Below are positions 32,913 through 62,199 of a DNA stretch of 64,000 nucleotides, one piece after another; within the stretch, counting starts at the first letter, position 1, and each line of letters begins with the position of its first letter. The notes beneath the pieces are model-generated. The model worked only from the letters and a program-made list of their open reading frames with translations. It did not search any database and had not been told where the DNA came from. The DNA is from Oscillospiraceae bacterium (GTDB lineage: Bacteria > Bacillota > Clostridia > Oscillospirales > Acutalibacteraceae): positions 186,001 through 250,000 of the forward strand of contig SVOT01000001.1 in the NCBI GenBank assembly GCA_015066225.1, given 5' to 3'. The position numbers were made by a program, and so were the translations under genes.

Positions 32913-32944
32913 TAAAAGGTTTCAACAAAAGAATAACTTTTGAA

Positions 32945-33055
32945 ATCTTCTTTCATCCGGACTATACCGTCGGTTCGGGAATTTCACCCAATCAACCGCA
33001 ATGCGGCTCGCAGACTTTACTGCCGGTGGGGAATCACACCCCGCCCTGAAGTTTC
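32945..33055 (-). promoter_or_regulatory. FMN riboswitch (RFN element)
   Basis: Minus strand reads CTTCAGGGCGGGGTGTGATTCCCCACCGGCAGTAAAGTCTGCGAGCCGC...GATTGGGTGAAATTCCCGAACCGACGGTATAGTCCGGATGAAAGAAGA, the conserved RFN core. Confidence 0.95.
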
Positions 33056-33150
33056 GTAAATACATATTAACACCATAATCAAAAAAAATCAAGCATATTG
33101 TTAAACAAAAACAATTACTTAACTTATTAGTTCATAAACAGCAATAAACA

Positions 33151-61310: not shown

Positions 61311-61600
61311 AATTTAAACACCTCGTTTTCTTAAAAAAAGTTGTAAGTTTGTTTGAACACCATTTAAAAGAAAACTCTAAATCCGCCAGTAAAGAATTAT
61401 TCATATATTCCCCCTCGACTAGACTTTAACACAAACCCCCATTTTTTTCAACTGCCAGCGTTACAGGCGACTAATTAATTCACATAAAAAACAGCAACCA
61501 CCATTTATTGGTGATTGCTTTATTTGTCTGTGGGCTACAAAAAAGATATATTCTGCTTTTTGTGTATGAATTCGAACTCTCACATAATCGTTAGCTTTTA

Positions 61601-61778
61601 GTGAAATCGTTCGCTTGCGCTCACGGTGAAATAATTCACTCCGTGAATTGTGAAATATTGCTCCCGTTGGTTGCAATGTGAAATAAAATTCGCCTCCTCA
61701 CATTTGCGGAGCAAATATTTCACAGCGAAGCTATTTCACTTGGCGAAGCCAAATTTCACTCGCCGCAGGCGAATTTCA
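61601..61778. repeat. Array of seven short inverted repeats separated by 7-nt GTGAAAT/ATTTCAC words
   Basis: GTGAAAT at 61601, 61626, 61650, 61678; ATTTCAC at 61717, 61733, 61753 (degenerate at 61773); perfect palindromes between most of them. Confidence 0.85.
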
Positions 61779-61781
61779 TTG

Positions 61782-61813
61782 AAAAAAGCACTTGCTTTCG
61801 CAAGTGCTTTTTT
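61782..61813. terminator. Strong hairpin AAAAAAGCACTTGC-TTTC-GCAAGTGCTTTTTT
   Basis: Perfect 14-bp stem, A/T-tracts both sides. Confidence 0.8.
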
Positions 61814-61814
61814 C

Positions 61815-61910
61815 TGGCGCAGACGGTGGGATTCGATGGGCTCTGCCCATCGTTTGCTCCGCAAACACCCGATTGTGTTCGGTTCGCCGAGGGTGGGTTC
61901 GAATCCCATT
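61815..61910. repeat. tRNA-Ser 3'-end-derived repeat with hairpin insert (copy A)
   Basis: Starts with 22 nt identical to the 3' end (incl. CCA) of the tRNA-Ser at 62109-62199. Confidence 0.85.
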
Positions 61911-61961
61911 ATTCATTTACATAAAAAACAGCAACCAACATTAATTAGCGGTTACTGTTTT

Positions 61962-62058
61962 TGGCGCAGACGGTGGGATTCGATGGGCTCTGCCCATCGT
62001 TTGCTCCGCAAACACCCGATTGTGTTCGGCTTCGCCGAGGGTGGGTTCGAATCCCATT
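61962..62058. repeat. tRNA-Ser 3'-end-derived repeat with hairpin insert (copy B)
   Basis: Nearly identical to copy A (one extra base in GGCTTCGCC). Confidence 0.85.
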
Positions 62059-62108
62059 TTTGATTTACATAAAGAAAGCAACCACCATTTATTGGTGATT
62101 GCTTTATT

Positions 62109-62199
62109 TGGCGCAGACGGTGGGATTCGAACCCACGAGCCCGGTTAAAGGCTAACGCATTTCGAGTGCGCCCCGTTATGACCACTTCGATACGTCTGC
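62109..62199 (-). tRNA. tRNA-Ser, anticodon CGA, CCA encoded
   Basis: GCAGACGTATCGAAGTGGTCATAACGGGGCGCACTCGAAATGCGTTAGCCTTTAACCGGGCTCGTGGGTTCGAATCCCACCGTCTGCGCCA folds as a class II tRNA: acceptor GCAGACG/CGTCTGC, loop CTCGAAA, long variable arm, GTGGG/CCCAC T-stem. Confidence 0.95.

Follow-up and report, generated by a model that had tools for sequence, protein, structure and literature searches.

The array studied here raises an obvious question: what is an arrangement in which a 7-nt word stays constant while the palindromes between its copies differ, and does it act as RNA, as a set of protein-binding sites or as a mobile repeat? We addressed this in a window of 64,000 nt (the whole stretch of DNA analysed) from the genome of an Oscillospiraceae bacterium, G000 (2.04 Mb, 18 contigs). 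Read from the window sequence, the array occupies 61601-61779 and is accompanied by a terminator-like hairpin at 61781-61814 (Table 1). On the plus strand, the exact word GTGAAAT starts at 61601, 61626, 61650 and 61678, and its reverse complement ATTTCAC at 61717, 61733 and 61753, making seven copies in total; an eighth, the variant ATTTCAT, starts at 61773. When the whole window was scanned in 250-nt stretches, four plus four copies of the word and its reverse complement were reached solely at this locus, the runner-up places having five word copies and 1253 of 1275 positions scoring 0. The original prediction, that the same 7-mer separates at least seven different inverted repeats, is confirmed for all seven exact words and their palindromes, and the hairpin-forming ability that it described is borne out by folding of both strands against dinucleotide shuffles (z = -5.4 and -6.4; none of 200 shuffles equalled it). 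The sequence as read also agrees that a constant word with variable hairpins is the reverse of a CRISPR layout; a CRISPR-like array was rejected because it is the palindromes that vary and the word that stays constant, and we saw no pointer to cas genes.

The predicted boundaries required some revision. The inversion does lie at about 61685-61700, but the inverted segment is really 61685-61716 and includes one more hairpin. What had been described as a single longer unit does contain the hairpin ATTTGC-GGA-GCAAAT, but the rest of it is a strand, x'' (61685-61694), that is complementary to the first hairpin arm, at 61760-61772. Similarly, the array had been thought to end at 61778, but the unit runs on into the terminator-like hairpin.

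Table 1. Features of the array and its surroundings in the window
Feature	Position	Strand	Remark
T-hairpin, perfect 15-bp A-run/T-run terminator-like palindrome on the tRNA side, GAAAAAAGCACTTGC gaaa GCAAGTGCTTTTTTC	61781-61814	-	AAAAAA-hairpin-TTTTTT
Link l1, ATGAAAT	61773-61779	-	
Hairpin A, TCGCC-TGC-GGCGA; 5' arm = strand x	61760-61772	-	
Link l2, GTGAAAT	61753-61759	-	
Hairpin B, TTGGC-TTC-GCCAA	61740-61752	-	
Link l3, GTGAAAT	61733-61739	-	
Hairpin C, AGC-TTC-GCT	61724-61732	-	
Link l4, GTGAAAT	61717-61723	-	
Centre: hairpin D (ATTTGC-TCC-GCAAAT), then strand x''	61685-61716	-	
Strand x'', GGCGAATTTT; complementary to link l1 + strand x	61685-61694	-	
Right link r1, ATTTCAC	61678-61684	-	
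Hairpin E, ATTGC...GCAAT	61657-61677	-	
Right link r2, ATTTCAC	61650-61656	-	
Hairpin F, AATTCAC-GGA-GTGAATT	61633-61649	-	
Right link r3, ATTTCAC	61626-61632	-	
Hairpin G, CGTGAGCGCAAGCGAACG, imperfect	61608-61625	-	
Right link r4, ATTTCAC; outer end of unit	61601-61607	-	
Rfam RF01706 Gut-1 match, tRNA-proximal half	61712-61781	-	69.8 bits
Rfam RF01706 Gut-1 match, outer half	61599-61689	+	50.9 bits
Copy of tRNA-Ser 3' end, CGAATCCCACCGTCTGCGCCA; its CCA directly precedes the unit	61816-61836 (approximate)	-	read from sequence
True tRNA-Ser(cga)	62109-62199		

A scan of the window with Rfam 15 gave two facing matches to RF01706 (Gut-1), on opposite strands and both at or above the gathering score of 50 bits. 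The original prediction had been made conditional on the array not being a copy of an already named repeat family; since it matches RF01706 twice (69.8 and 50.9 bits), it is formally such a copy. Gut-1 was described in Weinberg et al. (2010) as a noncoding RNA 'found only in environmental sequences', from the human gut only, and was rated as certainly RNA structure (PMC2864571). The Rfam entry type is sRNA, and in both sources Gut-1 is a gut-metagenome noncoding RNA for which no host organism or function is given. Thus, the motif already has a name, but lacks an assigned host and function as well as complete boundaries. Like the array, Gut-1 has hairpins spaced by (G/A)TGAAAT words, but the Rfam model (77 nt) covers one half of a larger unit, whereas the real unit is a pair of inverted halves with a central strand x'' and a terminator-like hairpin. 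Furthermore, in contrast to a metagenome noncoding RNA, the unit lies at tRNA and tmRNA 3' ends and is linked to genes for 23S rRNA intervening sequence proteins (IVPs).

The larger unit is about 185 nt long and has a strict order of parts, which we parsed in 36 distinct units as [T-hairpin] l1 hA l2 hB l3 hC l4 hD-x'' r1 hE r2 hF r3 hG r4; the window copy fills every slot. The l words are (G/A)TGAAAT-like, or GTGATAT or GTTATAT in other units, and the r words are their reverse complements. In an arm-pairing test of 33 same-orientation units, the hairpin arms were 89-100% Watson-Crick paired as against 34-69% when the 3' arms were redealt among units, and no shuffle was as good. In addition, in 29 of the 29 units scored, strand x (the 5' arm of hairpin A) has two complementary partners, its own 3' arm and x'', and the tail of x'' mirrors the l1 variants GTTATAT, GTTTTAT, GTTCTAT, GTTGTAT and ACGATAT. 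An automatic search for this x/x'/x'' triple upstream of all IVP genes was confounded by the link words and, without them, lay weakly above background; we therefore claim the triple for the parsed Gut-1 units alone.

Searching the genome and its relatives for the array, as had been proposed, gave 18 Gut-1 matches in G000, several of them convergent pairs 18-22 nt apart, and matches in 27 of 40 relatives, with up to 34 copies per genome and a scattered distribution over several families of the order. Across a wide sample of the phylum, Gut-1 was found in only 5 of 399. Most GAAAT-type units begin right after the CCA of a tRNA, of a tmRNA or of a duplicated tRNA 3' end, and the window copy comes after the third copy of the tRNA-Ser 3' end. 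Near-identical units stand behind different tRNAs in two pairs of loci, L020 (from the window's genome) with L038 (from another family) and L022 with L044, and in both the identity stops at the CCA. Two blocks in the outer flank of the window copy, TTCGAATTCATA and GTAGCCCA-AGACA, are common to these four loci. The T-hairpin sequence also recurs at these loci, behind different tRNAs in other genomes, and because the identical hairpin is found behind different tRNAs, it appears to belong to the unit and to travel with it. A perfect A-run/T-run palindrome after the CCA might otherwise be taken for part of an immobile cluster of strong terminators or insulators downstream of tRNA genes. However, T-runs are missing from the array hairpins, GTGATAT-type units, which follow protein genes, have a hairpin without a T-run, and near-identical units behind different tRNAs in different families are difficult to reconcile with an immobile cluster, which we regard as highly improbable.

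Other genomes provide further evidence of mobility. Five near-identical GTGATAT-type units in G012 have unrelated flanks, and most of the contigs bearing them break off within the unit, which is what one would expect of recent repeats. The congeners G011, G018 and G007 each have a different unit type at the orthologous 3' end of tmRNA (L042, L056 and L039), and in G013 (L050) the native tmRNA terminator is kept and is followed by a duplicated tmRNA 3' end and then by the unit. As different unit types share an orthologous tmRNA end in sister species, we conclude that the unit is mobile; one unit is found at unrelated sites and different units at one site, as in mobile elements. The tmRNA comparison shows turnover rather than clean insertion. 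A strain-level empty site was not found among the genomes compared, which are different species, and when the neighbouring radical-SAM gene was used to look for such a site in orthologous position, it had just two orthologs, both in different synteny.

The suggestion of a REP-like dispersed palindromic locus in the original prediction was right in kind, as the repeat is mobile, occurs in many copies and has a protein partner. As in REP/REPIN elements with RAYT (TnpA_REP), short palindromes are dispersed with a constant short word beside each hairpin, and gene-less copies would rely on a protein made elsewhere. However, array units differ from REP/RAYT in having many different hairpins each, a PF05635 partner, a stable-RNA 3'-end target and no Y1 transposase, and the RAYT-like neighbour that had been suggested is not supported: Y1_Tnp is absent from G000, G010, G016, G024, G027 and G035, all with 18-34 copies, and Y1 occurs in 12 of 27 Gut-1 genomes as against 6 of 13 others (Fisher p = 1). 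RVT_1 is absent from most genomes with many Gut-1 copies and does not track them either (p = 0.44). As neither RAYT (PF01797) nor reverse transcriptase (PF00078) is associated with Gut-1 copy number, we rejected both as movers, and consider REP/REPIN-like movement by a Y1 transposase or a reverse-transcriptase element to be extremely improbable. Overall, the earlier interpretation of the array is partly supported; it had missed the Rfam family, the target at tRNA and tmRNA 3' ends and the IVP gene.

Does the array act as RNA? The Rfam entry type and the rating by Weinberg et al. would suit a true noncoding RNA family, a multi-hairpin RNA produced by read-through from a tRNA promoter or from its own promoter, and a multi-hairpin RNA had also been among the initial readings of the locus. 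The arms covary and fold well, as such an RNA should. However, among 794 stem pairs, read on the tRNA-sense strand, there are just 3 G-T and 2 A-C mismatches; these are equally rare, so neither strand is favoured and neither has an RNA signature, whereas the tRNA acceptor stems of the same loci contain 33 G-T in 525 pairs (6%). Moreover, a terminator-like hairpin stands between the tRNA and the array, the halves are mutually inverted so that neither strand has all words in one sense, and both strands fold equally well. When each half is read on its appropriate strand, C(GNA)G loops are frequent, making up 30 of the 43 triloops on the left and 15 of 43 on the right. Loops of the C(GNA)G type form very stable DNA mini-hairpins. 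Such a scarcity of G-U pairs counts against selection acting on an RNA and leads us to argue that the palindromes exist at the DNA level. Intolerance of wobble on both strands would follow from palindromes that act in DNA or that are kept perfect by repair, and the low G-U content could also stem from recent palindrome repair. On this evidence, a noncoding RNA seems to us an unlikely explanation of Gut-1.

A candidate protein partner came from longer units. In three genomes, and behind different tRNAs (L028, L117 and L051), homology spans the CCA, the array and a 115-aa gene up to its stop codon. The product is a four-helix-bundle protein of PF05635 (23S rRNA IVP; TIGR02436), and PF05635 proteins in long units were also found in G000 (L155, 93 bits, with the clade word ATGAAAT/GTGAAAT) and in relatives; the window copy has no IVP gene beside it. 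In a word-blind test, which called an array where at least six copies of a 6-mer and its reverse complement lay within 350 nt upstream, arrays preceded 22 of 55 distinct IVP genes. The same criterion picked out none of the 45 window ORFs, 2 of the 116 other ORFs taken from these loci and no shuffle. Outside Gut-1, the array words at IVP genes were ATGATG (e.g. at L188), GTGAAG, ATGAAG and TGATAT, with ATGAAG also in reversed order. Array-linked IVPs cluster in the IVP tree (8 changes versus 18.7 in shuffles), and the link word follows this tree, with clades sharing words, a pattern that could arise simply from inheritance of array and IVP as one unit and is not proof of binding. A tRNA or tmRNA lies just upstream of 18 of 27 array-linked IVPs but of only 6 of 28 others, the latter including arrays missed by the test. 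Among 40 genomes, IVPs occur in 25 of the 27 with Gut-1 and in 5 of the 13 without (Fisher p = 6e-4); two draft genomes, G009 and G038, have two Gut-1 copies each and no IVP was detected in them. One viral contig (L235) also carries an IVP with an array.

In IVP-bearing units, the last right link is immediately followed by a -35 box (TTGAAA), and a TATAAT-like box comes 16-17 nt further on. Together with the co-inheritance of array and gene, this could mean that the array is an operator or leader with iterated inverted sites that regulates the IVP gene, and that IVP-less copies are decayed remnants. However, most Gut-1 copies have no IVP gene (18 matches in G000 versus 2 adjacent IVPs), these copies retain intact arrays with strict pairing, and the recent near-identical dispersed copies in G012 are without a visible IVP gene. 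Because IVP-less copies are both intact and more numerous, it appears that the array itself is maintained or spread, and we find the operator explanation doubtful. As a whole, the evidence is probably best explained by a mobile element family with palindromes that act as DNA and with an IVP as partner, of which the array in the window would be a short form that lacks the protein gene.

Two features of IVP loci are recorded here as separate observations. At about a third of array-linked IVP genes (L157, L138, L165, L196, L207, L210, L226 and others), the stop codon and the start codon of the following gene share bases (ATGA, with TGA as stop and ATG as start), and the gene that follows differs each time, as if the unit had been fused to unrelated start codons. 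At the plasmid loci L276, L279 and L280, four-helix-bundle IVP genes lie between restriction-modification or DISARM genes.

IVP genes without an array often have tandem 7-mers upstream instead. Of 65 regions upstream of IVP genes, 28 had 7 as their best lag, and of the 10 usable IVP genes in a broader sample, which took in Treponema and Bernardetia plasmids, 6 passed the lag-7 threshold as against 7 of 201 control ORFs; one IVP locus of this sample (L267) was set aside for its N-run. In the Coxiella intervening sequence (IVS), GACAGAT heptamer repeats are located just upstream of the S23p ORF (PMC4990558). From these two sets of heptamers, the link word is plausibly a heptamer of the same sort, with hairpins as spacers. 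Tandem heptamers directly upstream, and sometimes also downstream, of array-less IVPs were seen in several phyla (L134, L181, L183, L191, L237, L238, L242, L243, L245, L251, L273 and L274); at L259 and L261 the periodicity upstream of the IVP is 11 nt, not 7 nt.

How might array and protein work together? The PF05635/S23 IVP family has no known function, and a Xanthomonas relative has been described as a toroidal homopentamer of four-helix bundles (PMC4990558); the solved relatives 2RLD and 2GSC have five chains each. A complete unit runs from the CCA end of a tRNA or tmRNA through the terminator-like hairpin, four links alternating with hairpins, the inverted centre and four reverse-complement links alternating with hairpins, to a promoter and the PF05635 gene. 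We infer that its palindromes may act as DNA, as cruciforms or as single-strand hairpins upon strand separation, and that their extrusion would leave the 7-nt words exposed and single-stranded at regular steps. An IVP ring might then bind one word per subunit, building a nucleoprotein complex on which maintenance or movement depends, and IVP-less copies, including that in the window, would be non-autonomous and depend on IVP in trans. No transposase was found as a partner. It is possible, and we offer this as a tentative idea, that a pentameric ring IVP reads clade-specific 7-nt words, either hairpin-spaced or tandem, and so maintains or moves itself beside stable RNA genes. The trp RNA-binding attenuation protein (TRAP) is a ring protein that reads repeated short words. 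It is unrelated to IVPs and serves as a conceptual analogy only, word-binding by IVPs being a proposal.

Several known systems resemble parts of this unit. The 23S rRNA IVS with S23/IVP proteins (e.g. in Coxiella and Leptospira) is likewise a small selfish unit that lies at or in a stable RNA gene and carries a PF05635 gene; in Coxiella, it has heptamers upstream of the S23p ORF (PMC4990558). However, the array units follow tRNA, tmRNA or protein genes instead of interrupting 23S rRNA, and carry long hairpin arrays and their own promoter. MITEs and tRNA-targeting integrative elements are also small non-autonomous repeats at tRNA genes with duplicated tRNA 3' ends nearby, but no integrase or transposase partner was found for the array units, and identity between these starts after the CCA and excludes the tRNA 3' end. 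The cyanobacterial STRR and the TAACTGA repeats of Beggiatoaceae similarly place 7-nt repeat units upstream of genes, whereas the array 7-mers are hairpin-spaced and in inverted halves; the report on the TAACTGA repeats makes no mention of a link to IVPs (PMC4679880). Our literature search found no paper joining IVP or other four-helix-bundle proteins to heptamers or to Gut-1.

Two orphans, the Gut-1 'RNA' and the PF05635/S23 IVP, thus appear as parts of one mobile element, and their pairing provides a candidate partner and, in the form of a 7-nt word that varies from one protein clade to the next, a candidate binding site. Should the hairpins act as DNA, a family of the public RNA library would be misclassified. 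If ring-shaped IVPs do read these words, this would explain the Gut-1 'RNA', part of the heptanucleotide repeats beside IVP genes in several phyla and the role of 23S rRNA IVP/S23 proteins. The tRNA and tmRNA 3'-end target and the heptamer link in other phyla make the idea testable beyond uncultured gut Clostridia.

Finally, the window contains other features of interest. The tRNA-Ser(CGA) 3' end, CGAATCCCACCGTCTGCGCCA, occurs in three minus-strand copies at steps of about 147 nt (61815-62135). Each of the two extra copies is preceded, on the minus strand, by GGGATTCGAACCCACCC and three hairpins including GATGGGCAGAGCCCATC. These GGGATTCGAACCCACCC/GATGGGCAGAGCCCATC hairpins are a second type of hairpin element at tRNA 3' ends, seen also at L021, L112, L114 and L172, and the same type was found at the tmRNA in L050. 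A repeated terminator, ACATAAAAAACAGCAACC...GGTTGCTGTTTTT, flanks the region at 61474-61526 and 61911-61963, its copies being 81% identical. Elsewhere in the window, an FMN riboswitch (RF00050, 109.9 bits) lies at 32941-33057 on the minus strand.
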